A stretch of 64,000 bases of DNA from Sagittula marina (lineage in GTDB: Bacteria > Pseudomonadota > Alphaproteobacteria > Rhodobacterales > Rhodobacteraceae). The position numbers and the translations under genes are program-made. The stretch spans positions 1-64,000 of the forward strand of contig NZ_JACIEJ010000005.1 of assembly GCF_014196795.1 (NCBI RefSeq). The letters run 5' to 3'. The notes under the pieces were generated by a model. The model made no database searches. It saw only the letters and a list, made by a program, of their open reading frames with translations, and had not been told where the DNA came from. Shown one piece after another: positions 4,524-23,377 of this stretch; position 1 is the first letter of the stretch, and each line of letters opens with the position of its first letter.

Positions 4524-6296
4524 GAACCTCGCATGTTCGACTGCAAGGAAATCGTTTTTAATCGGGTTGAGACACCACAGGCCCTCCGAATTTGATTATC
4601 CTCTCTGCAAAGGTCGATCATGATCACCGGTTTCAGGCGCGGCTTGGCTGCAGCTTCGATACGTGCGGAGTGGTCGAAGGCGAAGGCCACAAATACCCAC
4701 CCATTTCTCACACCCCTAAAACCGCATTCAACAAACGTATGCGGCATAGAAATTAAGACGGTACTAATCGGCGTGGTTGCACATATCGGTCGAGACAATT
4801 CATATTAGAAATCCTGAGTGTTGGCTGAGGGCATGCCAAATCCCTTTGCTACTCGATACCGCACAGCCAATTGGCGCGGTTATATGTGTCGTGTTTCGCT
4901 TTTGCTCCGGTTGGATCCGGACCTGATTCTGGCAGGTGGCGAAGTCCGCCAAGCGTGTTCATCCCGAGACCGATGGACCGGGCCATTTTGCCTGACCAAG
5001 TAGACAAAACGGGTTGGGATCACCTCAACAGACCACGCGTTGGCGAGTGGTCCCCAACCAGAGATGAATTATGCGCGCCCATCGACAGAACAGGGGGGGG
5101 GGCATGGCCGGACACTTGAAAATGTCGCACCTTCAGCCTTCGTGGTGGCGAGGGCCATGCCACGCACCGTTGTCAATCGCACCCAACGGCTGGACGTATT
5201 GGCCGGTGAGACTTGGGCGATACGAGAGGCAGCACGGTGCGCTTCGTATCCACGCGAAGCGACGATCCAGAGGCCACGTGCAATGCGTAAGACGCTTGCC
5301 ACGTCGATGCCGTTGAAATGAAATCATCCGCCTCGCCGCAGGCGGCGCGTGCGCGTGCCCACAAATGGAAATCATTCCTTTGCGATGGTTTCCAATCTGC
5401 TGAAAAGCACTTTCAAGATCGTTGTGCCGATACAGCCTCCTTGGATGATATCCCGATTATTCTAACTTCATTGTTGCACAGCTCTGACGGACGAAGGGTC
5501 ACATTCCAGATCGCTTCGGTCTGACGGGCGGCCTTGGGCAAGCCGAAACCTTCCCGCAAGTTTGGCGGTCCGGGCCGACGTCACTCAGTGCCCGACATGC
5601 GAGGGGAACTTCTGTCAGGGCGGCGCTCAACGTAACGCTCTCAACGGACACCGTTTGGTGTCGGTGGGCCGCAGTGGTAACGGTGACCGTACCGTGATGC
5701 CAGAGTGCCCCGACCAGTTTCACACAGGTGACGGGATCGGTGGCGTGACCACCCCCCCTCCTGTCTCATAATTTGGACAGCTTCCGTTGTAGGGCGGGTA
5801 GGGGGAAACGTGTAAAGCAGACTGTCCCTCGCCATCACGCCTGAGGCGTGTGCTGTTTTGCGACTGATGGCAAGAACGACTTCAGAAAGCCGTAACAATG
5901 GCAGACGTGTCGCGTGCGTCGCAGGGGCATTTAGCATCGCATCCCATCCGAAACGGTAATTATACGATATATGCGTTGCTTTGAGCGAATCTTTTACCCG
6001 GATGCGCCCCTCGGACCCTGCCAATAATTGCGGAAAATTGGCGAATAAGCGTCTTTTCCAGCATTTTCAGGGTCAGGCTAAGCTGCGATGTGAGCGCTAG
6101 CGGAGGTCGTTTATCCACCGCAATGCGTTGGCGATTAAAATTTAGACGCAATTTTTGTTTATTAAAATCAACAGTGTAACATTGGGTGCTGTTGAATTCG
6201 TCGCTTAAGGAGGGCTGCTGGCGCGCTTTTTTCTTCCCAGAATGGATAAAAGCGGTAACATTCACGTAAATCACATCTTTAAGACAGGACGATTAC
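4524..6296. other. 1.8-kb gene-poor region between che and iac operons
   Basis: No gene is supportable here. The part next to 4523 must carry the promoter of the minus-strand che operon, and the AT-richer end (about 5930-6290) must carry the promoter of the iac operon. A run of ten G residues occurs at 5093-5102 and a run of seven C near 5751. ORFs of up to 127 codons on either strand lack motifs and good ribosome-binding sites. A weak sigma-70-like pair, TTGTTT at 6155-6160 and TAACAT at 6177-6182 (16-base spacing), is the best promoter guess for iacH. Confidence 0.5.
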
Positions 6297-7460
6297 GTGC
6301 CCCAAGAGTTCGAAGCGCCATCCGTAGCTCCTGATATCTCCGGCGTAGTGACGCGGCCGCTTATGCTCGGCTCTGATGGGTTGCGCGTTCTGGTGAAGGA
6401 GTGCCTTGGCGTCTCTGGCGTGCCGACGCGATGTGGCAGCGCTGCATTTGCAGATGCCCCGGCGGAGACCGTGCACTCCGCCGTGGTCGAAAATCTGTTG
6501 GCAGCGGAGGTGCGGATCACCGGCCTGGTGACGATGCATGAGATGGCCTTTGGTGTGAGCGGCGTAAACGCCTTTGCGGGGACCGCGCCGAACCCAAATT
6601 GGCCTGATCGCATTCCCGGCGGTTCGTCGTCTGGAACCGCCAGTGCCGTGGCTGCAGGGCTGTGTGACTTTGCCATCGGCACGGACACCGGCGGTTCGGT
6701 CCGTCAGCCCGCCTGCTGTTGTGGCGTCTACGGGCTGAAGCCGACCTTCGGGGCCATTGATCGGCGTGGCGCCGTGCCGCGCGTCTCATCCCTGGATGTG
6801 ATCGGGCCAATGGCGCGCGATGCCGCGATGCTGGAACGCGCGGCGTCGATCCTTCTGAAATTCAACTGCGAACAGGTTCAAGCGCCGCGACTGGCCCGTA
6901 TCACGGTCGAGGCCGATGCCGACATCAATGACGCCTTGGCTAAATCGTTGGCCGGCCAGGGGCAGATCCCCGCGCTGGATTTGCCGTCCTTCAAGGCGGC
7001 TTATGAGGCGGGTCTGGTGGTGATCAACCACGAAATCGCGCAGGAATTTGGGCAGCTTGCTCGCTCCAACGCTGTCATGGGGGAGGACGTGAGATCACGC
7101 ATCCTTGCCGCGCTCGAGGTCACAGACGCACAGCGCGCCGAGGCGGAAGAGGTCCGCGCCCGGTTCACCGCCGAGGTGGATGCAGCGCTCGCCACGGTCG
7201 ATGCGCTGGTCCTGCCCACGATGCCCTGCGTGCCGCCAACCTTGAGCGATGCGCAAGACCCCCGCGCGCTGATCCCTCTGACGCGGCTGGTGCGCCCCTT
7301 CAACCTCAGTGGCCATCCGGCGCTGACCATCCCGATCCTGACCGACAGCGGCTTGCCCGCAGGGCTGCAACTGGTGGGACGCAAGGGGGCCGATGCCACC
7401 CTCTGCGCCATCGCCCGCAGCCTGTTCCCAGCGAAACCGATAGTGGAGACCCAAGCATGA
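6297..7460 (+). CDS. iacH: IacH, amidase-signature hydrolase of auxin degradation
   Basis: The 387-residue protein belongs to the amidase signature family. Its Ser-cisSer-Lys triad can be read as K34 (VKECLG), the GGSSSG loop at 108-113 and S134 in GTDTGGSVRQPA. The start is a GTG at 6297 with AGGAC upstream. It opens the operon whose gene order is that of the described indole-3-acetate cluster iacHABICDEFG, and its stop overlaps the next gene as ATGA. In that pathway IacH is reported, as I recall, to hydrolyse an amide-type intermediate on the way to an anthranilate-like ring. The family is certain; the symbol rests on synteny. Confidence 0.88.
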   Translation: MPQEFEAPSVAPDISGVVTRPLMLGSDGLRVLVKECLGVSGVPTRCGSAAFADAPAETVHSAVVENLLAAEVRITGLVTMHEMAFGVSGVNAFAGTAPNPNWPDRIPGGSSSGTASAVAAGLCDFAIGTDTGGSVRQPACCCGVYGLKPTFGAIDRRGAVPRVSSLDVIGPMARDAAMLERAASILLKFNCEQVQAPRLARITVEADADINDALAKSLAGQGQIPALDLPSFKAAYEAGLVVINHEIAQEFGQLARSNAVMGEDVRSRILAALEVTDAQRAEAEEVRARFTAEVDAALATVDALVLPTMPCVPPTLSDAQDPRALIPLTRLVRPFNLSGHPALTIPILTDSGLPAGLQLVGRKGADATLCAIARSLFPAKPIVETQA

Positions 7461-8599
7461 CCCGCCCTGAACCCGACTTGTCGCGCACCGCCGCGCTGAT
7501 GGCGCTTTGTGATACGATCCGTGGCCGCCGCGCCGAGTTTGACCAGCTGCGCCATATCCCCCAGGATATTGTCGACGGCTTTCGCAAGGTGGGCGTTTAC
7601 CGCGCGTTCGTGCCGACCCGTCTGGGTGGCGATGCGGTCACGCCCATGCAATTTCTGGAGCTGATCGAGACCATTGCCGCCGCCGACCCTTCGGCAGGCT
7701 GGGTGGCGTCCTTTGGTGTGTCGTCGACCTATCTTGCGGCGCTTCCGGTGGAGACCTTTGATGCCATTTACGGCGCAAACCCTGACACGGTTTTTGCCGG
7801 GGGGCTGTTTCCGCCCCAGTCCGCGCAGCGCGTCGAAGGCGGGGTCGAGGTGTCGGGCCGGTGGGCGTGGTGCTCCGGCTCCATGTGCGCGGATCTGCTT
7901 GGGGGTGGCATAAAGATCGACGGCGACGAGACGCCGCTGCCCCGCACCGCGGTGATGCCCCGCGACAAGGTCACGATCGACGAGACATGGAACACCATCG
8001 GTCTGCGCGGCACCGGCAGCCATGACCTTGTTGTCGACAAGGTGGTCGTGCCTGACGACTGGACGTTTGTCCGTGGAAACCCGTCCGCGATGGAGGACCG
8101 GATTTTCCGTTACCCCGCCATGGCACTGGCGGCGCAGGTTCTGGCGGTCGTGGCTCTTGGTGCGGCGCGCGAGGCGCTTGATTTCATTCGCTCGGATGCG
8201 GCGCAGCGTGCATCGATCACCGGCGCCCCGAACCCCGGCGCGCGGCCTTATGTCCAGGCGCATCTGGCCCGCGCCGAGGCGACGCTCGCCGGCGCCCGCG
8301 CGCAGTTCTACGACGCCACCGCCAAGGCGTGGGAGGAGCTGGCCGACAACGACCGTGTGTCGACCGACACCCATGTCCGCTTGCGGCTTGCCGCGACAAC
8401 GGCCGCCCATGACGGCGCCGAGGCCGCCCGGCAGGCGTTCTTGATGGGCGGCGCGGGCGCGATGATGGCCGGGCATCCTCTGGGACGGCTGATGGTCGAC
8501 GCGGCCTGCGTCGCGCAACACGCCTTCATGGGGGAGGGCACATGGACCTCTGCCGGGGCGGCCATGTTCGGCGAACAGACACCGCCGGGTTTCCCCTGA
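7457..8599 (+). CDS. iacA: IacA, flavin-dependent indole-3-acetate monooxygenase
   Basis: The 380-residue protein has the acyl-CoA-dehydrogenase fold of group D flavin monooxygenases (the HsaA/DszC/IacA type) rather than a true dehydrogenase. Visible landmarks are DPSAGWVASFG at about 75-85, the substrate-loop region WAWCSGSMCADL, and TWNTIGLRGTGSHDLVV. The C-terminal helical bundle ends with HAFMGEGTW. It would hydroxylate indole-3-acetate at C2 using reduced flavin, presumably supplied by IacG encoded at the end of the operon. It starts inside the iacH stop (ATGA) and is followed by 45 bases before iacB. Position between an amidase and a Rieske pair makes the auxin assignment strong. Confidence 0.9.
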   Translation: MTRPEPDLSRTAALMALCDTIRGRRAEFDQLRHIPQDIVDGFRKVGVYRAFVPTRLGGDAVTPMQFLELIETIAAADPSAGWVASFGVSSTYLAALPVETFDAIYGANPDTVFAGGLFPPQSAQRVEGGVEVSGRWAWCSGSMCADLLGGGIKIDGDETPLPRTAVMPRDKVTIDETWNTIGLRGTGSHDLVVDKVVVPDDWTFVRGNPSAMEDRIFRYPAMALAAQVLAVVALGAAREALDFIRSDAAQRASITGAPNPGARPYVQAHLARAEATLAGARAQFYDATAKAWEELADNDRVSTDTHVRLRLAATTAAHDGAEAARQAFLMGGAGAMMAGHPLGRLMVDAACVAQHAFMGEGTWTSAGAAMFGEQTPPGFP

Positions 8600-8644
8600 T
8601 TTCACCGACACAGAGACAGACATCTACCGACGAAGGACAATCTC

Positions 8645-9004
8645 ATGACCGATACACCGCTGCGCACGCTCTTGTGCTTCAACAACCACCCGACGTTTTT
8701 CTCCTTGCCGTTCGATCAGATCGGACCGGTCTGGAAGGCCACGCAGGAACTGATGGCGGGCATCGACCAGATGGACGGCGTCACCATCGTTGGCACCTTT
8801 GATGACGACCAGACCATGGTCGGCGCCAGCCAGGGCTTTCCATTCACATGGTACATCATGGCTGATTTCCCCAACCGCGAGGCGGTGCAGGCGGCCTGCA
8901 ATTTGCTGCGCACCATCGTCGTGGGCGAGGGCAATGACCGGCTGTGGAAATACATGACCGTCGAGGCCCGCATGGGCCGCGCGCTGGAGATCCCCAAGCT
9001 GTGA
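8645..9004 (+). CDS. iacB: IacB-like small protein of auxin pathway
   Basis: This 119-residue protein has no membrane segment and no familiar catalytic motif. It contains QGFPFTWYIMADF and ends with a charged helix, compatible with a small alpha/beta-barrel dimer. Position directly after iacA, and its size, match iacB of the characterised cluster, which I recall as acting on the dioxindole-acetate stage. AAGGACAATCTC precedes the ATG. The last bases overlap the next gene as GTGA. Assignment is by synteny, not by a motif. Confidence 0.75.
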   Translation: MTDTPLRTLLCFNNHPTFFSLPFDQIGPVWKATQELMAGIDQMDGVTIVGTFDDDQTMVGASQGFPFTWYIMADFPNREAVQAACNLLRTIVVGEGNDRLWKYMTVEARMGRALEIPKL

Positions 9005-9519
9005 GCGATCTGGCCCCGATCCTTGCGCGGCTCGACCGTCTGGAGGCCGAAAGCGCCTGCCGTCGCTGCCTGTCCGACTACATGGACATCTGCGACCGTT
9101 TGGATGGTGACACGGACCTCGGCGCGCTGGGCGCGCTGTTCACCACCGATGCCGTCTGGGGCGGGGCGGGCGACCGCTACGCCAAGGACTTCGGCAGCCA
9201 CAAGGGGCGTGACGCCATCGTTGCATGGCTCGGGGCCTTTTGCACGACGCCGCCGCATTTCGCCATGAACGCACATTTCCTGTCGTCCGAGGCCATCACC
9301 CACACGAACACCGGTCTCACGGGGCGCTGGTTGATGCTGCAAACACCGACATTCCACGACGGGCAATCGTTTCTGATGGCCGCCCGGCTGGAGATCGACT
9401 TTGCCCACGAGGACGGCGCGTGGCGCATGGACCGCTTCTCGACACGCAATCTTTACGCGCGCCCGGTCGGCGACTGGAATGCGCCCATTCAGATCCCCGC
9501 ACCCGCTGCGGGCAAGTAG
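9001..9519 (+). CDS. iacI: IacI-like SnoaL/NTF2-fold protein
   Basis: I start the gene at the GTG at 9001, which overlaps the iacB stop (GTGA). This gives 172 residues. The longer in-frame ATG at 8944 lies well inside iacB. The sequence has the SnoaL-like pattern: N-terminal helix LARLDRLEAESACRRCLSDY, then FTTDAVWGG, GRDAIVAWL, HFAMNAHFLSSE, and beta strands ending in RNLYARP. Such folds isomerise or hydrate small hydrophobic substrates or act as the small subunit of dioxygenases. In the known cluster the gene at this place is iacI, of unsettled function. Confidence 0.75.
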   Translation: MSDLAPILARLDRLEAESACRRCLSDYMDICDRLDGDTDLGALGALFTTDAVWGGAGDRYAKDFGSHKGRDAIVAWLGAFCTTPPHFAMNAHFLSSEAITHTNTGLTGRWLMLQTPTFHDGQSFLMAARLEIDFAHEDGAWRMDRFSTRNLYARPVGDWNAPIQIPAPAAGK

Positions 9520-9531
9520 AAAGGACCACCC

Positions 9532-10806
9532 ATGTCCCTTGATGAATTCCCCTCCGGTCCGGTCGATACGGATCAACTGATGAAAGGCGACCGCGTCGCC
9601 ACCGCCATGTACGAAGATCCGGCCATCTTCGATGCCGAGATGGACAAGATTTTCGGCAAATGCTGGAACTGGGTTGGCCACGAAAGCGAAGTGCCCGGCA
9701 AAGGCAACTTCAAGCTGTCGTGGGTCGGTCAGCAGCCGATCATCATTTCCCGCGACCGCAAAGGCGAGCTGCACGTTCTGGTGAACCGCTGTCGTCACCG
9801 CGCCGCCAGCGTCTGCGAGATCAAGAAGGGCAAGACCTCGTCCTTTCAGTGTCCCTATCACGGCTGGGGCTATGCGCTGAACGGTGACCTGCGGGCGATC
9901 CCCTACACCGAAGGCTACAGTGCCGACTTCGACAAGGCCAACTACGGGCTGAAGAAGCTGCGCGTCGAAACCTTCGAGGGCATGATCTTTGCCACCTTCG
10001 ACTGGGATGCAGAGCCGCTGGAGGACTTCCTTGGCAACGCCAAGCCGTGGATCCGCCTGTTCATGAAGCAGGGCGGTGGCTTTCCGATCAAGGCACTGGG
10101 GGAACATCAGTTCAAGGTGCCGATGAACTGGAAGGTTCAGCTGGAAAACACCACCGACGCCTACCACTTTCCCATCGTGCACAAATCCTTCCTGCAATCG
10201 CTGGACGGTGAGGCGCTCGATACGTTCTCCTTCATGGAAGACGACGACGGCTATGTCGAAGACCTCGGCAACGGCCACTCCGTCATGGTCATGATGCCGG
10301 AACTGATCGACCTCGACGATGACCCGGACGCGCCGATCCCCGAGCGGTTTGCAGAGCTGGCCGAGACGCTGCGCAAGGATTACGACGAAGCGCAGGTCAA
10401 GCGCATCGTGCGCGCCGTGGGCGGTTGCGGCTTCAACCTGAACCTTTTTCCCAACGCGGCCTGTTCGCTGTCGTTCTTCCGCATCCTGCGCCCCGTGTCG
10501 GTGAATGAAACCGAAATTCGCCACATCGCGCTTGGTATGGAGGGCGGCCCGGAAGCGGCCAACCAGATGCGGATGCGTCTGCACGAGCATTTCCAGGGTC
10601 CGATGGGCTTCGGCTCTCCGGACGATGCCGAGGTCTGGGAACGCGTGCAGCGCGGCTCTGCCGGGGCAGGGGAACTGGACGTGATGGTGAACCGGGGCCT
10701 CGGCCTTGAAAAAGAGGGCGAGAACGGTCTGCCGATTGGCGATGTCTCCGCCGAAACCGGCATGCGCTCGGCCTACAAGATGTGGAAAAAGGTGATGGAC
10801 CAATGA
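9532..10806 (+). CDS. iacC: IacC, Rieske aromatic-ring dioxygenase large subunit
   Basis: The 424-residue alpha subunit has a Rieske [2Fe-2S] domain with C87, H89, C107 and H110 (CRHRA then CPYHGW). The catalytic domain carries the mononuclear iron site D209, H212, H217 in NTTDAYHFPIVHKSF. It should dihydroxylate an aromatic intermediate (anthranilate-like in the published auxin route) with electrons from IacF. An AAAGGA-type ribosome site precedes the ATG. The gene is coupled to the beta-subunit gene by an ATGA overlap. Confidence 0.92.
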   Translation: MSLDEFPSGPVDTDQLMKGDRVATAMYEDPAIFDAEMDKIFGKCWNWVGHESEVPGKGNFKLSWVGQQPIIISRDRKGELHVLVNRCRHRAASVCEIKKGKTSSFQCPYHGWGYALNGDLRAIPYTEGYSADFDKANYGLKKLRVETFEGMIFATFDWDAEPLEDFLGNAKPWIRLFMKQGGGFPIKALGEHQFKVPMNWKVQLENTTDAYHFPIVHKSFLQSLDGEALDTFSFMEDDDGYVEDLGNGHSVMVMMPELIDLDDDPDAPIPERFAELAETLRKDYDEAQVKRIVRAVGGCGFNLNLFPNAACSLSFFRILRPVSVNETEIRHIALGMEGGPEAANQMRMRLHEHFQGPMGFGSPDDAEVWERVQRGSAGAGELDVMVNRGLGLEKEGENGLPIGDVSAETGMRSAYKMWKKVMDQ

Positions 10807-11294
10807 AGGATATGGTCGCAACGGAGGTGACCCTCGAAGAGGTCACCGCATTCCTGTGGGCAGAAGCGGATCTGCTCGACGCGCGGGATTACGACGCCTG
10901 GCTCGCCTTGTGGACAGACGATGGCCACTACGTGATCCCGATCGAAAAGAACGCCACGGATTTCGCCAACACGCTCAACATTGCCTACGATGACAAGGCC
11001 ATGCGCAAGATGCGGGTGGAGCGGTTTCAGGCGGGGTTTTCCATCTCGTCGGCGCCGCCTGCGGACAGCGTGCGCACCGTGTCGCGGATCGTCATCGACA
11101 AGGTCGAAGGCGAGGTTATCACCGTGCGCGCCGCGCAACATGTCATCGAGGACAAGTTCGGCCGCCAACGCGCCTTTGCCGCCAATGTGGAATGGGCGCT
11201 GGTGGTCACAGAGAACGGCCTGATGATCCGCGACAAGGTCGTGCGGCTGTTGAACTCCGACGGGACGCTGACCTCGATCAGCTACTTGTTCTGA
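10803..11294 (+). CDS. iacD: IacD, ring-hydroxylating dioxygenase small subunit
   Basis: The 163-residue beta subunit has the NTF2-like fold typical of such partners: VTAFLWAEADLLDARDYDAW, then WTDDGHYVIP at about 40, and a C-terminal strand pair ending SISYLF. It has no iron ligands, as expected. It starts within the iacC stop (ATGA) rather than at the in-frame upstream ATG at 10782. It stabilises the alpha3beta3 oxygenase. Confidence 0.9.
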   Translation: MKDMVATEVTLEEVTAFLWAEADLLDARDYDAWLALWTDDGHYVIPIEKNATDFANTLNIAYDDKAMRKMRVERFQAGFSISSAPPADSVRTVSRIVIDKVEGEVITVRAAQHVIEDKFGRQRAFAANVEWALVVTENGLMIRDKVVRLLNSDGTLTSISYLF

Positions 11295-12052
11295 TGGGGG
11301 CGCCTTTGCCGGATAAGATCCAGACCGCTTTGGTCACAGGTGGGGCAAACGGGTTCGGCGCCACCGCCACCCGCGCCTTGCATGCCGCAGGCTATCGGGT
11401 GGTGATCGCCGACATCGACCAGGAGGCCGCGGGCAAACTGGCCTCCGAGCTTGACCTGTCGGGCGAAACCGCCGTGACGGCGACGTTGGATGTGTCCCGC
11501 CCCGAGGACTTTCAACTGGCGCTGGACAAGATCGTGGCCCGCTGGGGCTCCGCCGAAGTGCTGGTGAACAACGCGGCCCGCACCGAAGCCAAGCCCGTGC
11601 TGGAGATCGACCCGCATGAGTTCAACGCCATCATGGCGACGAATGCCGGTGGGGTGTTCGCCGGGTGCCAGACCTTTGGCAGGCATTTCAAGGAACGCGG
11701 CTACGGCCGCATCATCAACATGGCCTCGCTGGCCGGGCAGAACGGCGGCACCGCGACAGGCGCCCATTACGCCGCCTCCAAAGGGGCGATCCTGACGCTG
11801 ACCAAGGTTTTTGCCCGTGATCTCGCCGCGTTTGGCGTGACATGCAATGCGATCTCGCCCGGACCGATGGACAGCCCGATGGTGCACAACATCGTGGGCG
11901 ATAACCTCGACGGATTTCTGAAGAACGTCCCCGTCGGGCAGCTTGGGGACACGGCCTTTGTGGCCCGGATGGTCACCATGCTTGCCGGCCCGGATGCTGC
12001 CTTCGTCACCGGCGCGTGCTGGGACGTCAACGGCGGCCTGTACATGAGGTAA
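11294..12052 (+). CDS. iacE: IacE, short-chain dehydrogenase/reductase
   Basis: The 252-residue SDR has the cofactor motif TGGANGFGATATR near the N terminus, NNAARTE, and the catalytic Ser/Tyr/Lys pattern with ASLAGQNGG and YAASKGA. The start at 11294 shares the TGATG junction with the iacD stop. In the characterised auxin pathway IacE works right after IacA, in forming dioxindole-3-acetate. SDR assignment is firm. The C terminus (GACWDVNGGLYMR) is normal. Confidence 0.9.
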   Translation: MGAPLPDKIQTALVTGGANGFGATATRALHAAGYRVVIADIDQEAAGKLASELDLSGETAVTATLDVSRPEDFQLALDKIVARWGSAEVLVNNAARTEAKPVLEIDPHEFNAIMATNAGGVFAGCQTFGRHFKERGYGRIINMASLAGQNGGTATGAHYAASKGAILTLTKVFARDLAAFGVTCNAISPGPMDSPMVHNIVGDNLDGFLKNVPVGQLGDTAFVARMVTMLAGPDAAFVTGACWDVNGGLYMR

Positions 12053-12054
12053 GG

Positions 12055-13017
12055 ATGATGAAGGACATGCAGAACAGTTCAGCCCTGGTGCTCACCGTTG
12101 CCGAACGGATCGACGACAAGGGTGACATCATGCGCCTCACCCTCACCGGGGAGGGGCCGCTGCCAGAGGTCGCGGCAGGCGCTCATATCGACCTGCTGGT
12201 GGAGACGCCAGAGGGACCGATCTGGCGGCAATATTCGTTGGCGGGGGATCCCGCAGACCGCACGCAATGGCAGCTGGGCATCCTGAAAGACCCGGACAGC
12301 CGTGGCGGCTCCGTGGCGCTCCACCAGCTTGTGAAGGCGGGGGAAACCGTCCACGTCGAAGGGCCCCGCAACCACTTTCCGCTGGCGCAGGCGGATCATA
12401 CCGTCTTGTTCGGCGGCGGGATCGGCGTGACACCCATGCTGGCGATGGCTTGGGAGCTGCACGCGAAGGGCGCTGATTTCACGCTGCATTACGCCACCCG
12501 CTCGGCAGAGCGCTGTGCCTTCGCAGATGTGCTCCCGGGCCTGCCGTTTGCGGACAATGTCGTGCTTTACCACGATGACGCGCAAAAGCTCGACCTTGAT
12601 GCGGTGATGCCCGCCCCGAACCCGACCACGCATGTCTACGTCTGTGGGCCGCAAGGGTTCATGGATTGGGTGATCGCGCACGCAGAAGCCAGCGGCCATG
12701 CCACCGACCATGTGCATCGGGAGTATTTCAGCGCCGACGTGGACGCCTCCGGCGACAGCTTTGACGTCGAATGCGCGCAATCCGGCCTGACCGTCACCGT
12801 CGGCCCCGACGACACCATCGCCAAGGCCCTGGCCCGCGAAGGGCTGAAGATCGAGGTGAAATGCGAAGAAGGCATCTGCGGCACCTGTGTGACCGATGTG
12901 CTGGAGGGCGAAATCGACCACCGCGACCAGTTCCTCACCGAGGACGAGCGCGAGGACAATGACCAGATTTGCGCCTGCTGCTCTCGTGGGCGCGGCAAGC
13001 TGGTCCTGGATATCTGA
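12055..13017 (+). CDS. iacF: IacF, phthalate-dioxygenase-reductase-type electron donor
   Basis: The 320-residue protein has a flavin domain (RQYSLAG), an NAD domain (LFGGGIGVTPMLAM and YVCGPQGFM) and a C-terminal plant-type [2Fe-2S] ferredoxin (CEEGICGTC, then CACC). It carries electrons from NAD(P)H to the IacCD oxygenase. This order of domains is that of VanB/PDR-type reductases. Two adjacent ATGs occur (12055 and 12058); I use the first, three bases after the iacE stop. Confidence 0.92.
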   Translation: MMKDMQNSSALVLTVAERIDDKGDIMRLTLTGEGPLPEVAAGAHIDLLVETPEGPIWRQYSLAGDPADRTQWQLGILKDPDSRGGSVALHQLVKAGETVHVEGPRNHFPLAQADHTVLFGGGIGVTPMLAMAWELHAKGADFTLHYATRSAERCAFADVLPGLPFADNVVLYHDDAQKLDLDAVMPAPNPTTHVYVCGPQGFMDWVIAHAEASGHATDHVHREYFSADVDASGDSFDVECAQSGLTVTVGPDDTIAKALAREGLKIEVKCEEGICGTCVTDVLEGEIDHRDQFLTEDEREDNDQICACCSRGRGKLVLDI

Positions 13018-13025
13018 GGAGCGAG

Positions 13026-13514
13026 ATGATGGAGTTACAACCCCTTTTCCGAGAAGGCATGTCGCGGCTCGGTGCCTCTGTCACCGTGCTGACAACGGAT
13101 GGAAGCGCGGGCCAGCATGGTATGACGGCCTCGGCGGTCTGTTCCGTGACGGACACGCCCCCCACGCTGTTGGTCTGCGTCAATCGCGCCAACCGCAGCC
13201 ATGATTTGTTCCTGCAAAACGGCGTGTTATGCGTCAACGTGCTCGCAGGCCACCACCGCGATCTGTCTGGCGTCTTCGCCAACAGCAAGGCCCCGGATCG
13301 GTTTGAACAGGCCGGGTGGACAACGCATGTCACAGGTGCTCCGGTGCTTGACGACGCGACCGTGTCTTTCGACTGCACAATCGTTGATCGGACGGAGATC
13401 GGAACGCATTCAGTCTTCTTTTGCGAGGTGCAAGAGATTGCACTTGCCCAAGGTGCGCCGGAAAGCTTGGTCTGGTGCAACCGGACGTTCCACGATTTGC
13501 GGGCGGCCTCCTAA
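13026..13514 (+). CDS. iacG: IacG, flavin reductase
   Basis: The 162-residue protein is a flavin-reductase-domain enzyme (HpaC/HsaB type): REGMSRLGASVTVLTTDG, GMTASAVCSVTDTPPTLLVCVNR, and VLAGHH. It makes reduced flavin for the two-component monooxygenase IacA. GAGGAG precedes the start, nine bases after iacF. A second ATG follows at 13029. It closes the iac block. A GGGCCC-centred short palindrome lies just after the stop, and the next gene (TRAP solute receptor) begins 78 bases later. Confidence 0.9.
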   Translation: MMELQPLFREGMSRLGASVTVLTTDGSAGQHGMTASAVCSVTDTPPTLLVCVNRANRSHDLFLQNGVLCVNVLAGHHRDLSGVFANSKAPDRFEQAGWTTHVTGAPVLDDATVSFDCTIVDRTEIGTHSVFFCEVQEIALAQGAPESLVWCNRTFHDLRAAS

Positions 13515-13592
13515 GGGCCCTTCGCCACTTCCGCGACGGCTGCACTACGAACGGCTGCGCGTCATACTCAACCAACAGGAAACGAAACGCTT

Positions 13593-14612
13593 ATGAAACT
13601 CATTCTTGCCTCGGCCACCGCTCTGATGATGGCCTCCACCGCCATGGCGCAAACCCAGACCACGCTGACGGTGGCGAACTGGCTGCCGCCCGCGCATCCG
13701 CTGGTGTCCGAAGTCATCGTGCCCATGACCGAACAGATCACCGAGGCCACCGGCGGCACGGTGCAGACCACCATCCTGCCCGCCCCCCTGGGACCGCCCG
13801 CTGCGCATTTTGACTTTGCCGTCAACGGTGTGGCCGATATCACCTTTGGCGTGCAGGGCTACAATCCGGGCCGCTTCACCACCACCAACCTGGCCGAGCT
13901 TCCCTTCCTCAGCGACAGTGCAGAGGCCACGTCGGTCGCCTACTGGCGGGTCTTCGAGGATCAGCTGATCGATGCCGGCGAATACGATCAGGTGAAAGTG
14001 CTTGGCGTTTTCACCCACGGTCCCGGCGAGATCTTCATGAAGGAGGCGGACGCCAGCTCCGCGGATGTGCTGAAAGGGGCCAAGCTGCGCGTCGGCGGCG
14101 GCATCGTGCATGAGGTCGCCACCACGCTCGGCGCCGTCCCCGTCGAAGGACCGTCCTCCAAGGCCTACGAGCTGCTCAGCCAGGGCGTCGCGGACGGCAT
14201 CCTGTTCCCCTACGAGTCGGTCAACTTCTTCAAACTGATCCCGCAGCTCGACATCGGCATCTCTGTGCCCGGCGGTCTGTACAATACCTCCTTCTACGTG
14301 GTGATGAACAAGGCCAAGTGGGACAGCCTGAGCGCCGAACAACAAGAGCAGATCGACAGCGTCACCGGCGAGGCTCTGGCCCGCATGGCAGGCAAGATGT
14401 GGGATCGCGCCGATGAAAAGGGCGTCGACGCCATGGACGGGCAGATTGCCGTGTCGCCCGCGACCGATACGCAGCTGGAGGCATGGACAGCCGCCTTGCA
14501 GCCGGTGATCGAAAGCAAGCTGGGAGAGATGGACGAGGCCGGTCTCGACAGCGCCGCGCTTTATGATGCGTTCAAGGCAGAGATCGCCACAGCCGAAGCC
14601 GAGCTGCAATGA
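13593..14612 (+). CDS. TRAP transporter solute-binding protein (DctP type), iac-linked
   Basis: The 339-residue periplasmic receptor has a clear signal peptide (MKLILASATALMMASTAMAQ) and the DctP fold with KGAKLRVGGGIVHEVATTLGAVPV. Three TRAP genes follow the iac block on the same strand, with DctQ coupled by ATGA. The substrate is not readable from sequence. Linkage suggests uptake of indole-3-acetate or a related aromatic acid, which would be unusual because known iac loci are, as far as I recall, served by other transporter types. Confidence 0.9.
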   Translation: MKLILASATALMMASTAMAQTQTTLTVANWLPPAHPLVSEVIVPMTEQITEATGGTVQTTILPAPLGPPAAHFDFAVNGVADITFGVQGYNPGRFTTTNLAELPFLSDSAEATSVAYWRVFEDQLIDAGEYDQVKVLGVFTHGPGEIFMKEADASSADVLKGAKLRVGGGIVHEVATTLGAVPVEGPSSKAYELLSQGVADGILFPYESVNFFKLIPQLDIGISVPGGLYNTSFYVVMNKAKWDSLSAEQQEQIDSVTGEALARMAGKMWDRADEKGVDAMDGQIAVSPATDTQLEAWTAALQPVIESKLGEMDEAGLDSAALYDAFKAEIATAEAELQ

Positions 14613-15148
14613 AACCCAGCGAGATGAGCCTTACGGATCGCTCAATGCAAACCCCGGCAGCCCATCGGCTGTCGGTCCCCGGCATCACGCTGCGGGGGGT
14701 GTTGTCGGTGCTTGGCGGTCTGTTCCTGCTGGCGATGATGGCGCTGACCGTTCTGGATGTGCTCGGGCGCTACCTGCTGAACGCACCGGTGGCCGGGGCG
14801 GGGGAGCTGACCGAGATCCTGCTGTGCGCGACGATTTTCCTCGGGCTGTGTGCCGTGGCCTTGCGTGATGAGCATGTGACCGTCGACCTGATCACCGATC
14901 TGTTGCCGGACTGGGTGCAGCCCTGGCGGCGCGTGGCTTGCGGCGTCTTCGGCTCCGTGATCCTGGGCTTGGTCACGTGGCGGCTTGCCGTCTACGCCGG
15001 GCAGATCGGCAGCTACGGCGGCCAGACCTCAACCCTGAAGCTGCCCATCGCGCCGCTGGGCTACTTCTGCGCGCTGTGCACCGGCGTTGGCGCCGTGCTG
15101 AGCACGGTCGTTCCCGTGCACCGCCTGATCCGCTATCTGAAAGGGTAA
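14609..15148 (+). CDS. TRAP transporter small permease (DctQ type)
   Basis: The 179-residue membrane protein has four hydrophobic segments (about 30-52, 62-85, 105-125, 145-168) and the family's VLDVLGRYLLNAPVAGAGEL motif in the first pair. It forms the membrane complex with the large permease encoded 5 bases downstream. It overlaps the receptor gene by four bases. Confidence 0.92.
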   Translation: MKPSEMSLTDRSMQTPAAHRLSVPGITLRGVLSVLGGLFLLAMMALTVLDVLGRYLLNAPVAGAGELTEILLCATIFLGLCAVALRDEHVTVDLITDLLPDWVQPWRRVACGVFGSVILGLVTWRLAVYAGQIGSYGGQTSTLKLPIAPLGYFCALCTGVGAVLSTVVPVHRLIRYLKG

Positions 15149-15152
15149 CCCC

Positions 15153-16442
15153 ATGGAATTTCTCGCATCTTGGCCCGTGGGCATGGTGGTGATCTTTGCC
15201 CTCCTGCTGGCGGGTGTCCCGATCTCCTTTGCCCTGGCCGGTGTCGGCGTCGCCGGTGTTGCGGCGATCATCGGATGGAGCCCGGCGCTCTCGTTGCTGG
15301 GCTCGACCTTCTTTGACAACGGGCGCGACTATTCCCTGTCGGTGCTGCCGCTGTTCCTGTTGATGGGCAATTTCGTGGTGCAATCGGGCATCGCGCAAGA
15401 GCTCTACGCATCGGCCTACGCGTGGTTGCGCCATCGCAAAGGCGGCCTTGCCACGGCGACCGTGATTGCCTGCGGCGCGTTCTCGTCCGTGTGTGGATCC
15501 TCGATGGCCACGGCCGCCACGATGACGCGGATCGCGCTGCCGTCGATGCGCAAGTTCGGCTACCCGGATCAACTCTCCACTGCAGCCATCGCAGCGGGTG
15601 GGACGCTTGGCATTCTGATCCCGCCCTCCGTCATTCTGGTGTTCTACGGCATCATGACCCAGCAGGACATTGGCAAGCTGTTCCTGGCGGGGCTGATCCC
15701 CGGCGTCCTTGGCGTCATCGGCTATGCCATCGCGGTGCGCATCACCGTGACCTGGCGCGGTATGGACCTGCCGGTGGAGGAAAAGCTGCCGCTGATGGAT
15801 CGCATCCGCGCGCTGAAGGGCACGGCCGGGGCGCTGCTGCTGTTCGCTTTCGTGATGGGTGGCATCTATCTTGGGGTCTTCACCCCGACCGAAAGCGCCG
15901 GGATGGGCGCGGGTGGCGCGTTGCTGCTGGTGCTTCTGTCGGGCCGCTTCTCGCTGCGCGCTTTGGGCGATGTCCTCTATGACACGATGAAGACGACAGC
16001 CATGATGTTCTTCATCCTGTTCGGTGCGCTGACCTTTACCAACTACGTCAACATGAGCGGCATGACCGCTGACATCCAGGGGTTCCTTGCCAGCTTTGGC
16101 TCGACCCCGACGATGACCATTCTGATCATTCTGGGCATCTATCTTTTGCTGGGCTGCGTGCTTGAAAGCCTGTCGATGATCATGCTGACCGTGCCGGTGT
16201 TCTACCCCATCGTTGCGGCGCAGGGCTTTGACCTGATCTGGTTCGGCATCTTTGTCGTGATGGTAACGGAAATCAGCTACATCACGCCGCCGGTGGGGAT
16301 GAATGCCTTCGTGCTGCGGTCTGTTGTGCCGGACGTGCGGCTGGGCACCATCTTCTCCGGGCTTGCGCCCTTTGTGGTGCTGGACGTGGTGCGGGTGGCC
16401 TTGCTGACCATCTTCCCCGGCATCGTTTTGTTCTTGACCTGA
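15153..16442 (+). CDS. TRAP transporter large permease (DctM type)
   Basis: The 429-residue protein has a dozen or so hydrophobic segments and the family signatures GNFVVQSGIAQELY, AAIAAGGTLGILIPPSVILVFYG and EISYITPPVGMNAFV. It is the sodium- or proton-coupled translocating subunit working with the receptor and small permease before it. The next gene starts 10 bases after its stop, so the enzymes at 16453-18221 are probably in the same transcript. Confidence 0.95.
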   Translation: MEFLASWPVGMVVIFALLLAGVPISFALAGVGVAGVAAIIGWSPALSLLGSTFFDNGRDYSLSVLPLFLLMGNFVVQSGIAQELYASAYAWLRHRKGGLATATVIACGAFSSVCGSSMATAATMTRIALPSMRKFGYPDQLSTAAIAAGGTLGILIPPSVILVFYGIMTQQDIGKLFLAGLIPGVLGVIGYAIAVRITVTWRGMDLPVEEKLPLMDRIRALKGTAGALLLFAFVMGGIYLGVFTPTESAGMGAGGALLLVLLSGRFSLRALGDVLYDTMKTTAMMFFILFGALTFTNYVNMSGMTADIQGFLASFGSTPTMTILIILGIYLLLGCVLESLSMIMLTVPVFYPIVAAQGFDLIWFGIFVVMVTEISYITPPVGMNAFVLRSVVPDVRLGTIFSGLAPFVVLDVVRVALLTIFPGIVLFLT

Positions 16443-16452
16443 GGAGGCCAAC

Positions 16453-17460
16453 ATGACCCTCAAGATTGCTGTCGTCGGGGCGGGCAATATCGGCACCGCC
16501 ATGGCCGCCCTGCTGGGAGGCACCGACTGTGACCTGACGGTGGTGGCACGTGGCGCCCGCGCCGCCCAGGTCGCGGCGAACGGCCTGCGCCTCGATGATC
16601 GTGGAACCCTGCATGAGGCCCATCCGCCGGTGGTTGAACGGCTGGAGACGCCACAGGATGCCGTTTTCCTTTGCGTGAAATCGCATCAGCTGCCGCAGGC
16701 GGTTGCCCTCAACGCAGGCGGGATCGGCCCGGACACATTGATCATTCCGATGGTGAACGGGCTGCCGTTCTGGTTCTTCGCCGGAAAGGGCGAGGTGCCC
16801 TTTGTGGACCCGGAGGGAACTCTTGCGCGCCATCTGCGGCCCGAGCAGGTCCTTGGTGCGGTGTTGCTGATGACCGTGCGGATGGAGGGGGATCTGGCCC
16901 TGTCCACCAATACGCCGACGCTCTCGCTGGGGCCTGCGGCGGTTCATCCGCCGGGACTGGTGCCTTTGCAGGACACTCTGGAACAGGCCGGCGTGCGCGT
17001 CGACCTCGCCAGCGACATCCGCGAAAAGGTGTTGGGCAAATTGCTGGGCAACATCACCACGAACCCTCTGTCGGCGCTGCTTGGCTGCACGCTCAAGACG
17101 ATCGGCGAAACGCCCGAGCTGGGGCAACTGGTGTGCGCCGTCGCCGATCCGTTTCGCCAGTGGGCGGCGGGGCAGGGCGTGGCATTGCCTGACAACCAAT
17201 GGCTTCTGGACCTGCTGATCGACGCCGGGGATTTTCCCACCTCCATGTTGCAGGACGCGCGCGCTGGTCGCACGCTTGAACTGGACGCCATCGCCCGCGC
17301 GCCGTTGGCTTTGGCGGCGCAGTCCGGCCACCCCATTCCCGCGCTGAAGGCGATCCTCGAAGCCATTGATGAAGCCGATAGCCTGCCGCTCTCCCCGGCC
17401 AAAGCGGGGGGCCTTCCGCCTCGCCTGCTGGCCAACCTGGAAAAGGAGTTAATCCAATGA
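16453..17460 (+). CDS. ketopantoate-reductase-family oxidoreductase
   Basis: The 335-residue protein begins with the Rossmann motif VVGAGNIGTAMA and has the PanE/ApbA family pattern: CVKSHQLPQAV, PMVNGLPFWFF, and KLLGNITTNPLSALLG in the helical domain. These enzymes reduce 2-keto acids with NADPH. A biosynthetic PanE is about 300 residues. This longer version in a catabolic operon probably acts on a pathway 2-oxo acid instead. It is coupled to the aldolase gene by ATGA. Confidence 0.85.
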   Translation: MTLKIAVVGAGNIGTAMAALLGGTDCDLTVVARGARAAQVAANGLRLDDRGTLHEAHPPVVERLETPQDAVFLCVKSHQLPQAVALNAGGIGPDTLIIPMVNGLPFWFFAGKGEVPFVDPEGTLARHLRPEQVLGAVLLMTVRMEGDLALSTNTPTLSLGPAAVHPPGLVPLQDTLEQAGVRVDLASDIREKVLGKLLGNITTNPLSALLGCTLKTIGETPELGQLVCAVADPFRQWAAGQGVALPDNQWLLDLLIDAGDFPTSMLQDARAGRTLELDAIARAPLALAAQSGHPIPALKAILEAIDEADSLPLSPAKAGGLPPRLLANLEKELIQ

Positions 17461-18221
17461 ACGATATGTCCACGGTCCAGAAACCCATCGACCAGATGAC
17501 CGAGGCCGAACTGCGCGTGCAACTGACGGATTTCTATCACCTCGTCAGCTACCTCGGCTGGACCGAGCTGATCTTCAACCATATTTCGGTGCGCCTGCCC
17601 GGTGATGAGCACGCCTATCTGGTCAACCCGATGGGGCTGCACTACGACGAGGTCACGCCGGACAATCTTCTGGTGGTCGGTGTCGATGGCAAGCTGAAGC
17701 GCGAAAGCGAATACAAGCCCAATCCTGCGGGGTTCGCGCTGCATGGCGCGATCCACGAACACCGCCCGGATGTGGGCTGCGTGGTGCACACCCACACCAC
17801 GCCTGTCTCTGCCATCACGATGAAGGGCTATGACATAGATCACAATTCCTTCTACGGCGCGCAGCTGTATGGGCGCGTGGCGTATCATACCTTCGAAGGC
17901 ATCACGATCTACGACGAGGAGCGCGACCGCATGCTCCAGTCGCTTGGCGACAAGCATGTTCTGGTTTTGAAAAACCACGGCGTCGCCTGCATGGAGACGG
18001 ACATCCCGCTGACCTTTTTCCTGCTCTGGACGTTTCAGCGCGCGGCAGAAATCCAATGCGCCTCCGCTGCGCTGCCGGGGCCGGACAGCCAGCTTCCCGA
18101 AACCATCAAGGAAAAATGCGCAGCCGATGCACAGCGGCTCAAGGAAAGCGCGTCTTTCGCCACGCTGCTGTTCGACGCCATGGTCCGCAAGATGAAGCGT
18201 GACCGCCCGGAATTCGCCTGA
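17457..18221 (+). CDS. class II aldolase/adducin-family protein
   Basis: The 254-residue protein has the class II aldolase pattern: GWTELIFNHISVRLP, the zinc ligands in VVHTHTTPVSAI, and a later histidine in VLKNHGVACM. Family members split or epimerise hydroxylated acids or act as decarboxylases. The residue HTHT plus the distal His argues for an active metal site. It is the last gene before the convergent MarR gene and the shared terminator. Its role next to the auxin genes is unknown; it may process a C3-C5 product of ring cleavage. Confidence 0.82.
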   Translation: MNDMSTVQKPIDQMTEAELRVQLTDFYHLVSYLGWTELIFNHISVRLPGDEHAYLVNPMGLHYDEVTPDNLLVVGVDGKLKRESEYKPNPAGFALHGAIHEHRPDVGCVVHTHTTPVSAITMKGYDIDHNSFYGAQLYGRVAYHTFEGITIYDEERDRMLQSLGDKHVLVLKNHGVACMETDIPLTFFLLWTFQRAAEIQCASAALPGPDSQLPETIKEKCAADAQRLKESASFATLLFDAMVRKMKRDRPEFA

Positions 18222-18231
18222 CGACGCGCAC

Positions 18232-18255
18232 AGGTGGGGCCAGACGGCCCCGCCT
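18232..18255. terminator. bidirectional terminator between aldolase and iacR
   Basis: AGGTGGGGCC at 18232-18241 pairs with GGCCCCGCCT at 18246-18255 over a four-base loop (one G-T pair). It sits between two convergent genes and touches the stop codon of the MarR gene. A long T tract is missing, so strength is uncertain. Confidence 0.6.
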
Positions 18256-18731
18256 TAAAGGTCCCCGAGCTTGTGAAACACCTTCTCCAGCAGCAGGTTC
18301 ATCACCATTTTTTCCTCTCGCGACATATCGTCAAAGACAGCGCGGAAGATCTCATCGGCCACGGCGCGGGCCTTGCGGCGCAACTGATGGCCCTCGGACG
18401 TCAGCGTGACCTCTGTCACGCGGCCATCGGTCTGGCGCGGGGCCGTGGTGACCAGACCCTGCGCGGCCATGCGCTGTACGATCTTGGTGGCGGTGGTGAG
18501 CTTGATGATACACAGGCGCGCGATCTCAGAGACCGACAGCGCCGGCTCCTCGTAAACCGACATGAGCACCCGCCAATAGGTGATGTCGAGCCCTTCGGCC
18601 TTCAGCCGTTGTTCCATGACCATGTTGTATTGGTTCGACGTCTGGGTGATCCAGTAGAACGGCCAATCGGTTTTGGAAAAATAGGGCTCTGTCTCTGGGC
18701 GGCCCGTGTTTTGATCGTCGGTCTGTTGCAT
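18255..18731 (-). CDS. iacR: MarR-family regulator, probable IacR
   Basis: The 158-residue winged-helix protein has the MarR layout: N-terminal dimerisation helix, LSVSEIARLCIIKLTTATKIVQRMAAQGLV as the helix-turn-helix, RQTDGRVTEVTLTSEGHQL as the wing, and a C-terminal helix. Characterised auxin loci are controlled by a MarR repressor, IacR, that lets go of DNA when the auxin is present. This gene is the only MarR in the window and lies at the end of the iac-TRAP operon, convergent to it. The assignment to IacR is by context. Confidence 0.82.
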   Translation of the reverse strand: MQQTDDQNTGRPETEPYFSKTDWPFYWITQTSNQYNMVMEQRLKAEGLDITYWRVLMSVYEEPALSVSEIARLCIIKLTTATKIVQRMAAQGLVTTAPRQTDGRVTEVTLTSEGHQLRRKARAVADEIFRAVFDDMSREEKMVMNLLLEKVFHKLGDL

Positions 18732-18962
18732 GCGCGGGCCTTGGATGGAATGCGTTCGTCAGGGGTAGGCAAGCTCTGGGGCAACTGCAACGGCTTGGCC
18801 TGAAATCTACGCGCAATGTGGCGCATGGGTCCAGGCAGGCGAAAATCTGCGTCGCTCGTGACAAAGGTATCTACCGCCAGACGCAGGTCTCGCCAAGGCG
18901 CAGACGCGCCTTTATCAGGATTTGCAGGACAGGGGTGCGCCCCATGCGAGGAGACGGGCAGA

Positions 18963-19691
18963 ATGACCAACATGGCGGAACGCGTCGCTGACATATTGCT
19001 GACGGCGCGCGAGACGGGGCAGCGCGGCGATGCCACCCGGCTGCCGGTGCCAGACTATGCCGAAGCGCTCGACATCCAGAGCCGGCTGCTCCGTCACCTT
19101 GGTCCGATCAGCGGCTTCAAGGTTGGCGCATTTCGCGACGGGCAGCCGGCGATGGCGCCGATCCCGCGCGCGCATACCTTTGATAATGGGGCCGATGTGC
19201 CCGCACGCGACCGGCTTGGTCTTGAATTGGAAATCGGTTTCGACCTTCTGCGCGCGCCCGACCCGGCGATGCGGGACAGGCCGCAGGACTACGTTGTGCC
19301 GCGTCTTGTGCTGGAGCTGTGTGATCAGCGGTTGTCCGGCGAAGCGCTGGACCCGGCGGTAAAGCTCGCGGACATGCAGCTTAACCACGGTCTGGTCCTC
19401 GGTCCTGTTCTGACGGATTGGGACGGGGGCGACTTCGGACACCTTACCGCACGGCTGCAATGTGGAGCGGACTTGGTGGTGGATGGCCCGGTCAGCGTGC
19501 CGGGCGGGTCCGCGCTGCGCGCTCTGTGGGTGCTGATGGACCATCTGGGCGATCACTGTGGCGGGCTTCAGGTGGGGCAGACGATCATCACGGGGTCTGT
19601 CTCCGGCCTGGAATGGTTTCCGCCGGGCACGGACGTCCAAGCCCGGATCGAAGGCTTCGGTGACCTCACCTGCCGCCTTGTTCAGGCATGA
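18963..19691 (+). CDS. 2-keto-4-pentenoate hydratase / oxalocrotonate decarboxylase family protein
   Basis: The 242-residue protein has the MhpD/DmpE pattern: GFKVGAF, LGLELEIGFDLL, YVVPRLVLELCDQRL, LADMQLNHGLVLG, and the ending TIITGSVSGLEWFPPGTDVQARIEGFG. Such enzymes hydrate 2-oxopent-4-enoate or decarboxylate oxalocrotonate in meta-cleavage of catechols. I start at the ATG at 18963, after a GAGGAGACGGGCAGA stretch, not at the in-frame ATG at 18816. It runs 10 bases into the convergent LysR gene. If the iac route yields catechol, this could serve below ring cleavage, but no extradiol dioxygenase is in view. Confidence 0.82.
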   Translation: MTNMAERVADILLTARETGQRGDATRLPVPDYAEALDIQSRLLRHLGPISGFKVGAFRDGQPAMAPIPRAHTFDNGADVPARDRLGLELEIGFDLLRAPDPAMRDRPQDYVVPRLVLELCDQRLSGEALDPAVKLADMQLNHGLVLGPVLTDWDGGDFGHLTARLQCGADLVVDGPVSVPGGSALRALWVLMDHLGDHCGGLQVGQTIITGSVSGLEWFPPGTDVQARIEGFGDLTCRLVQA

Positions 19692-20611: not shown

Positions 20612-20623
20612 CAATACCCCGAA

Positions 20624-23365: not shown

Positions 23366-23377
23366 AGGTAAACTGTC

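Follow-up and report, generated by a model that had tools for sequence, protein, structure and literature searches.

A Probable Indole-3-Acetate Import and Degradation Operon with a TRAP Transporter in Sagittula marina

Gene Content of the Locus

The stretch of DNA analyzed here (the window, 64 kb) comes from the genome of Sagittula marina (5.04 Mb in 45 contigs), and the subject of this study is a locus at positions 6297-18731 of the window that was predicted to encode the degradation of the auxin indole-3-acetate (IAA) by the iac pathway. Fourteen same-strand genes span 6297-18221, spaced by -4 to 78 bases (negative values are overlaps), and every frame is open to its stop codon (table 1). 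The first nine genes (6297-13514) are organized on one strand in the order iacHABICDEFG with a spacing of -4 to 45 bases. They are followed by dctPQM, encoding a tripartite ATP-independent periplasmic (TRAP) transporter, by a ketopantoate-reductase-like gene and a class II aldolase gene on the same strand, and finally by a convergent MarR gene. The identification of the nine genes as iacHABICDEFG, in order and family, in the original prediction holds: all are open, lie on one strand, and belong to fitting Pfam families. The ApbA/PanE-like gene and the class II aldolase gene are two further genes of 6297-18731 that the original prediction did not name. The DctP, DctQ, and DctM components all score over their Pfam cut-offs and form a three-part DctP-type TRAP transporter (13593-16442). 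The gene set is not a chance arrangement because the same set recurs in named genomes. No RNA family was detected at gathering score within 4000-20000, no tRNA was detected in the 64-kb window, and the 2-kb stretch ahead of iacH contains no convincing gene by codon composition.

Table 1. Features of the S. marina Locus with Positions in the Window and Basis of Assignment
Feature	Position	Strand	Basis
Probable IacR operator GTAACATTCACGTAA	6255..6269	+	27 bases ahead of iacH start codon; footprint from 72 iacH upstream regions
iacH, amidase-signature protein	6297..7460	+	PF01425 235.9 bits; 44-71% identity to IacH of fetched iac loci
iacA, flavin-dependent monooxygenase, acyl-CoA-dehydrogenase-like (HsaA-type)	7457..8599	+	Pfam, tree
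iacB, 119-residue marker of iac loci, without Pfam family	8645..9004	+	Matches to records naming "IacB protein"
iacI, SnoaL-like protein	9001..9519	+	SnoaL_4 58 bits; likely start 9001
iacC, Rieske oxygenase alpha subunit	9532..10806	+	Rieske and Ring_hydroxyl_A; tree
iacD, oxygenase beta subunit	10803..11294	+	Ring_hydroxyl_B 72.1 bits; likely start 10803; adjoins iacC
iacE, short-chain dehydrogenase/reductase (SDR)	11294..12052	+	Pfam; likely start 11294
iacF, ferredoxin/FAD reductase (PDR-type), proposed IacCD partner	12058..13017	+	Fer2/FAD/NAD; likely start 12058
iacG, flavin reductase, proposed IacA partner	13026..13514	+	Flavin_Reduct 137.7 bits; likely start 13026
DctP, TRAP solute receptor, proposed auxin receptor	13593..14612	+	PF03480; co-occurrence, trees, model, fold matches
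DctQ, TRAP small membrane subunit	14609..15148	+	PF04290
DctM, TRAP large membrane subunit	15153..16442	+	PF06808 292.3 bits
Ketopantoate-reductase-like (ApbA/PanE) protein	16453..17460	+	Pfam; in 24/80 fetched iac loci
Class II aldolase/adducin family protein	17457..18221	+	Pfam; in 21/80 fetched iac loci
iacR, MarR-type regulator, IacR group	18255..18731	-	Nearest solved chains 7l19, 7kua, 7l1i

Identity of the iac Enzymes

The iacA, iacB, and iacI genes are named as markers of iac loci and the indolepyruvate ferredoxin oxidoreductase subunits as markers of iad loci (PubMed Central article PMC9613470). All three iac markers were found in the locus, as were iacE, iacF, iacG, and iacH, and the iad marker iorB/iotA was absent among the genes at 6297-18731. 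The IacB protein matched 28 records of a plasmid collection at 42-88% identity, four of which (Acinetobacter, two Klebsiella, and Psychrobacter) are labelled "IacB protein"; an Acinetobacter and a Klebsiella record contain the nine genes in the order of the window, with the ninth gene of Acinetobacter annotated as a different kind of reductase. A single contig scan identified IacB relatives encoded in 328 stretches, and the iac enzyme set is thus an ordinary one. The best 80 stretches were kept, which biases the set toward the kin of the window, and these 80 iac loci were fetched with flanks of at most 10 kb in either direction (some shortened by contig ends) and scanned with proteins encoded in the window and in reference loci.

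The original prediction would be contradicted by IacA and IacCD grouping in a tree with other oxygenases. For IacA, 25 rows were placed in a tree with three monooxygenases as outgroup; the window protein groups with the 24 other IacA rows and not with the outgroup (92/98, 92% of 200 bootstrap trees), where 92/98 lies below the strong-support mark of the tool and all three outgroups have very long branches. When 18 IacC rows were analyzed together with two iad Rieske proteins and three further proteins, the window protein grouped with the 17 other IacC rows (99/98, 100% of 200 bootstraps), apart from the benzoate-type and iad Rieske proteins. The window IacC shares 58-88% identity with 17 iac copies from alpha-, beta-, and gammaproteobacteria versus at most 34% with six non-iac Rieske proteins. 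When a second Rieske oxygenase of the window (described below) was included as an extra outgroup, the iac rows stayed together in only 1% of 200 bootstraps, which we attribute to the branch length of 10 of the outgroup row. By every sequence feature examined, 6297-13514 is an intact iac cluster with predicted enzymes of an already known kind.

An assignment of IacA or IacC as HsaA, anthranilate, or benzoate enzymes was rejected: the NCBIfam scores are far under the cut-offs, and trees and identities contradict it.

Pathway and Shortened Loci

The Caballeronia IacA converts IAA to 2-oxindole-3-acetate (oxIAA) and IacE converts oxIAA to dioxindole-3-acetate (DOAA); together they yield DOAA without IacB, the role of which is unclear (PMC7225977). 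By analogy, IacA with its reductase IacG would produce oxIAA and IacE would produce DOAA in S. marina, and IacC/IacD with IacF, aided by IacH and IacI, may convert DOAA to catechol. The S. marina contig C10 carries an intradiol dioxygenase gene beside a muconate cycloisomerase gene (over its cut-off) and close to a plasmid RepA gene; further intradiol matches are present on C6 (twice) and C5 (once). The C10 pair fits ortho-cleavage of catechol, and this catA/catB-like pair, encoded elsewhere in the genome, could cleave the ring. A point against this part of the pathway is that the C10 dioxygenase best fits models of chlorocatechol/catechol 1,2-dioxygenases with scores under the curated cut-offs.

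At a threshold of E 1e-3, iacC, iacD, and iacI are all missing from eight of the fetched loci. Six of them (L030 and L070-L074) contain iacA, B, E, and G, and L086 contains iacH, A, B, and E with no IacG match. The remaining locus, L029, has iacA, B, E, and G plus an incomplete IacF match, and it retains together with L030 the TRAP genes and an IacR-like MarR gene. A shortened locus is carried by Pseudooceanicola atlanticus. No IacC relative was found at E 1e-30 in seven of the eight genomes (their completeness is not given), and the eighth contains only a partial match at 33% identity. Accordingly, these genomes should stop at DOAA, barring other enzymes. In Herbaspirillum, the A, B, and E genes point in one direction and F, D, C, H, and I in the opposite one. 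The split of iac into A-B-E-G and H-I-C-D-F suggests that IacB contributes to the early steps, up to DOAA, and that IacH and IacI belong to the second half. As a separate observation, L029 contains an IacF match (11229-11945) that covers residues 14-249 of 321 and ends before the 2Fe-2S part, perhaps the remnant of a lost second half.

The shortened loci bear on the possibility that the S. marina locus mainly erases an algal or bacterial signal rather than feeding the cell. Eight relatives that should stop at DOAA, two of which keep both importer and regulator, speak for such a role, as does the suitability of TRAP receptors for scavenging at low concentrations. However, the window encodes the complete set of enzymes leading to catechol, and a probable catechol pathway is present in the genome. 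Carbon and nitrogen could thus be gained, and we consider erasure a rather unlikely main function. Sequence cannot tell eating from erasing, nor can it speak to a link with algae.

The end of the pathway may differ among iac loci. In 44 of the 80 (L004, L005, and L006 among them) a divergent NTF2-type protein (32-34% identity to IacI) is encoded and no IacI is in place. A maleylacetate reductase together with an intradiol dioxygenase was found in 15 of these 44 loci, in none of the 20 IacI loci, and in one of the 16 loci with neither protein, which suggests a hydroxyquinol-type end route for the NTF2-type loci with maleylacetate reductase. The window locus carries IacI.

Regulator and Putative Operator

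The MarR gene that was proposed to close the locus as iacR was located on the minus strand, and its product is indeed nearest to solved regulators of the IacR type. It matches chains 7l19, 7kua, and 7l1i at E 2e-29 to 3e-19, compared with 7e-12 for 3cdh of the IadR group, and scores 105.7 bits to 7l19 versus 48.8 bits (57 bits lower) to the R. pomeroyi 3cdh. We take the three former chains to be the published IacR structures. Such crystal structures are described for P. putida, E. soli, and A. baumannii, IacR-group regulators bind IAA, and Tyr44 is named as an auxin-contacting residue of IacR (PMC9613470). Tyr35 of the window MarR aligns with Tyr68 of chain 7kua. The latter would equal Tyr44 if the chain is, as we assume, the P. 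putida regulator extended by a 24-residue tag. Membership of the IadR group was rejected based on the bit scores, nearer to IacR, and on the S. marina genome, which has no match to an IadR-type query at E 1e-25.

A group of regulators that binds IAA (PMC9613470) also bears on the natural substrate of the whole operon, which might be another indole acid (indole-3-propionate, indole-3-butyrate, or a substituted auxin) with IAA as a side substrate. The Caballeronia IacA and IacE accept indole-propionate and indole-butyrate (PMC7225977), but the regulator points to IAA and the iac strains described in the available literature remove or grow on IAA, which makes a different main substrate improbable.

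The word TTACGTGAA occurs in 31 of 72 iacH upstream regions (approximately 340 bases each, window included) versus at most five in 20 mononucleotide shuffles. The refined consensus of the putative operator is GTAATATTCACGTAA, and its sole matrix match in the 64-kb window is located at 6255-6269. The matrix passes 64 of the 72 iacH upstream regions, a count that is not independent as the same set, with many close kin, trained it. Outside the training set, six of seven iacA upstream regions in loci without iacH pass (L070 fails). The spacer that separates a divergent MarR gene from the TRAP genes passes in seven of 20 loci, with the different spacing of the window left out; two of the matches (L006 and L049) overlap the receptor start codon and were discounted by eye. 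The remaining five loci, where MarR splits the TRAP genes from the iac genes, carry an operator copy ahead of TRAP, which suggests joint control there. In S. marina, a single transcript of the iac and TRAP genes is likely because the 78-base gap ahead of dctP contains no listed terminator. Promoter-like matches are at chance level (four versus 3.1 expected), and 19 terminator-like matches were found versus 12.9 expected (sd 4.3).

Distribution of the TRAP Importer

A locus was classified as TRAP-bearing if it encodes a receptor with at least 50% identity to one of three iac-linked reference receptors. Overall, 35 of the 80 fetched iac loci carry a TRAP receptor, 33 out of 43 within the Rhodobacterales and two out of 37 in other bacteria (order assigned from record titles). 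The original prediction described a TRAP transporter as unusual for iac, which stands for the characterized loci with their ATP-binding cassette (ABC) or major facilitator superfamily (MFS) genes but not for the fetched Rhodobacterales loci, where TRAP is the rule. ABC receptor genes are present in seven of the 80 loci (five of the Acinetobacter and two of the Martelella type). Among six iac loci from plasmid records, TRAP genes were found in Thioclava, Sagittula, and Martelella, and none adjoin iac in the Gemmobacter, Acinetobacter, and Klebsiella records. No TRAP importer for auxin was found in the available excerpts of open-licence PubMed Central literature (most subscription journals and bioRxiv are outside its reach), and the term "TRAP" is absent from the main text of PMC9613470.

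The link was analyzed further within the family of the window, in 295 genomes sampled evenly across 294 genera; this sample and the 80 loci share some species, so the two surveys are not independent. A strong IacB match (E 3e-57 or better) was identified in 11 genomes, and three genomes with weak matches (E 2e-9 to 6e-8) were not counted. An orthologue of the window receptor (at least 71% identity, next best 52%) was identified in 13 genomes. It is present in all 11 IacB genomes, on the same contig and less than 5 kb from iacB, and in two of the 284 genomes without IacB (Fisher p 2.6e-18). The sample includes a genome of the same genus (G262) in which neither IacB nor the receptor was found.

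Receptor Relatives in iad Loci and Receptor Structure

More distant receptors were found in auxin loci of the other type. On a Paracoccus saliphilus plasmid, a receptor with 51% identity to that of the window is encoded between Rieske genes and two MarR genes, in a locus that also contains indolepyruvate oxidoreductase subunits, cyclase-family proteins, an AMP-binding protein, and a thiolase and is iad-type by content because these subunits are iad markers. A second genome (G234) encodes a 45% receptor beside Rieske genes that are 84% identical to those of P. saliphilus, and its MarR is nearest to 3cdh (E 5.5e-33). With this IadR-type MarR as query, 17 of the 295 genomes matched (G234 included). 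Of these, 13 have a receptor match no more than 16 kb away on the same contig (nine of them within 5 kb), three have one only on another contig, and one has none. One genome (G306) contains the 3cdh sequence itself (100% over 140 residues) in a locus with both ior genes, a Rieske pair, a reductase, an AMP-binding protein, a thiolase, and SDRs; the TRAP PQM genes adjoin the MarR gene and the receptor is 38% identical to that of the window. All four genomes with a receptor in the 46-52% tier have it beside iad Rieske genes. Of 20 control receptor stretches, five were chosen for a nearby IadR-type MarR, and all five have iad Rieske genes near TRAP; the other fifteen (at most 44% identity) were chosen for having none within approximately 5 kb.

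When 38 receptors were analyzed in one tree, the 11 iac-linked rows formed a single clade (98/98), and the sister group contains five iad rows (L101, L109, L126, L143, and L144) together with L129, which has no nearby auxin genes. The other seven iad-linked rows (L123-L125, L127, and L145-L147) fall elsewhere in the tree, mostly among receptors without auxin genes nearby. A smaller tree with two iad rows and far outgroups joined the iac and iad receptors at 96/97. We read the trees as showing the iac receptors to be probable close kin of the P. saliphilus-type iad receptors, with the other iad loci having apparently recruited different TRAP importers of the same aromatic-acid superfamily. As a side observation, the TRAP importers of the iad-type loci L127 and L143-L147 represent two or more receptor branches, which looks like repeated recruitment.

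The predicted structure of the window receptor, modelled from 19 sequences, has a mean predicted local distance difference test score (pLDDT) of 91.8. Its 15 best fold matches (Z 35.7-43.1) include 11 that are named TarP or aromatic-acid receptors, and six of these titles name cinnamate, coumarate, caffeate, ferulate, or 4-hydroxyphenylacetate; the next match, at Z 31.1, is a pyroglutamate receptor. By sequence, 4nap and 4pgn/4pgp match the receptor at E about 1e-17. The ligands of these entries are tryptophan, indole-pyruvate, and IAA. A review lists "indole acids" among new TRAP ligands (PMC5812351). In sequence and in its predicted fold, the receptor is nearest to the TarP-like aromatic-acid TRAP receptors, although a common fold gives no proof of ligand.

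Cargo of the Importer

Several of the observations weigh against auxin as the cargo, or against a strict tie of the importer to the pathway. No TRAP genes are seen in ten of the 43 fetched Rhodobacterales loci (two of the ten stretches being short), and just two of the 37 others have them; the pathway can thus do without TRAP. Two genomes (G088, 73%, and G046, 71%) carry a receptor orthologue without IacB, and the receptor is thus not strictly exclusive to iac. Among the fifteen control loci below 45% identity without a nearby IadR-type MarR, two (L136 and L137) contain iad enzymes and 13 do not; the tie of the receptor to auxin loci fades below about 45% identity. In the 38-receptor tree, the join of iac and iad receptors is supported only at 82/70, and the R. 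pomeroyi-type receptor (38%) lies apart from the window clade among receptors mostly without auxin genes. Four of the 15 best fold matches, the best one (4p56) included, have titles truncated ahead of the ligand name. The ligand of 4p56 is mandelate.

The enzymes might therefore degrade auxin while the TRAP transporter carries another compound (an aryl-2-hydroxy acid, indole-lactate, or a substrate of the ketopantoate reductase and aldolase) and IAA enters by diffusion or another carrier. Beyond the orthologues without IacB and the 13 distant relatives without auxin genes, this would agree with the several aromatic acids bound by fold-near TRAP receptors and with the position of the ketopantoate-reductase and aldolase genes directly after TRAP in the window. 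The latter two genes occur together in 21 of the 80 iac loci, 19 with a TRAP receptor and two without. However, they are missing from 13 of the 35 TRAP-bearing iac loci, Acinetobacter and Herbaspirillum pair them with iac and an ABC importer, and the closest non-iac receptor group sits in iad-type auxin loci. A different cargo is unlikely on this balance, and we regard the importer as the new part of the locus, with a strong genomic link to iac and a presumed capacity to bind auxin.

In the two genomes that have the orthologous receptor but no IacB, the TRAP genes (L097 and L098) lie near the tryptophan-synthase genes trpB or trpA, as judged from protein starts, which may be chance or a tie to indole metabolism. 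The window contains further catabolic genes outside the iac locus. A second catabolic cluster at 19682-26001 encodes a LysR regulator, a protein of the arylmalonate-decarboxylase/racemase family, an amidase, and another TRAP set, the receptor of which is 27% identical to the iac-linked receptor over 163 residues. The second Rieske oxygenase, at 31640-33941, has its own reductase and is 25% identical to IacC over 210 residues.

Proposed Function

Taken together, the locus is probably a complete inducible operon for the import and degradation of IAA, a reading that we hold with good confidence. By analogy with known IacR proteins, IacR would repress at the operator before iacH when auxin is absent and be released when IAA binds. 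In the periplasm, DctPQM would capture IAA or a closely related indole acid and import it driven by an ion gradient, and degradation would proceed through oxIAA and DOAA to catechol and ring cleavage as outlined above. The ketopantoate-reductase-like protein and the aldolase may treat a side product, which is a guess.

A broader proposal is more tentative, and we regard it as possible but short of probable: the TRAP receptors of this clade may be dedicated high-affinity auxin importers common to the iac and iad routes of the Rhodobacterales, aromatic-acid TRAP transporters may have been recruited to auxin loci more than once, and the importer and regulator that a few relatives combine with an iacC-less set may be a stand-alone auxin eraser that stops at DOAA and yields little food.

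Bacterial auxin uptake is poorly known, with affinity measured for one ABC receptor, IadK2 (PMC10374108). If the TRAP transporter does import auxin, the gene for its receptor would provide a sequence marker of marine auxin scavengers. The locus supplies one protein that can be tested in vitro and one candidate operator.

Comparison with Known Systems

The iac locus of Pseudomonas putida 1290 (iacABCDEFG-R-HI) shares the nine enzyme families and a regulator of the IacR group with the window (PMC9613470). Its gene order differs, its nearby transport genes encode an MFS carrier and an ABC ATPase instead of a TRAP transporter (PMC6624763), and the ketopantoate-reductase and aldolase genes are additions of the window. 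The iac loci of Marinomonas sp. NFXS50 and MWYL1 are closer in organization: they share the A, B, I, C order and a MarR gene and are adjoined by a class II aldolase and a 2-dehydropantoate 2-reductase, as in the window, but have a branched-chain-type ABC importer in place of TRAP (PMC11373566). The whole arrangement of the window, including TRAP, ketopantoate-reductase, and aldolase genes, is found in Thioclava sp. GXIMD2076 (L003), Aquimixticola soesokkakensis (L036), and Thalassovita taeanensis (L038), although unlike the window the Thioclava locus has no MarR gene within the stretch examined.

The iad loci of P. saliphilus (L109) and of the R. pomeroyi type (L127) resemble the window in their MarR genes and TRAP importer but encode a Rieske-initiated route with ior genes and without iacA, iacB, and iacI; their receptors are 51% and 38% identical to that of the window, respectively, the latter on another branch. 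The IadK2 protein of Variovorax, an IAA solute receptor within an auxin-degradation operon, is comparable to the proposed receptor of the window, with the difference that IadK2 is ABC-type with a measured nanomolar affinity (PMC10374108) whereas the S. marina receptor is TRAP-type and known from its sequence.

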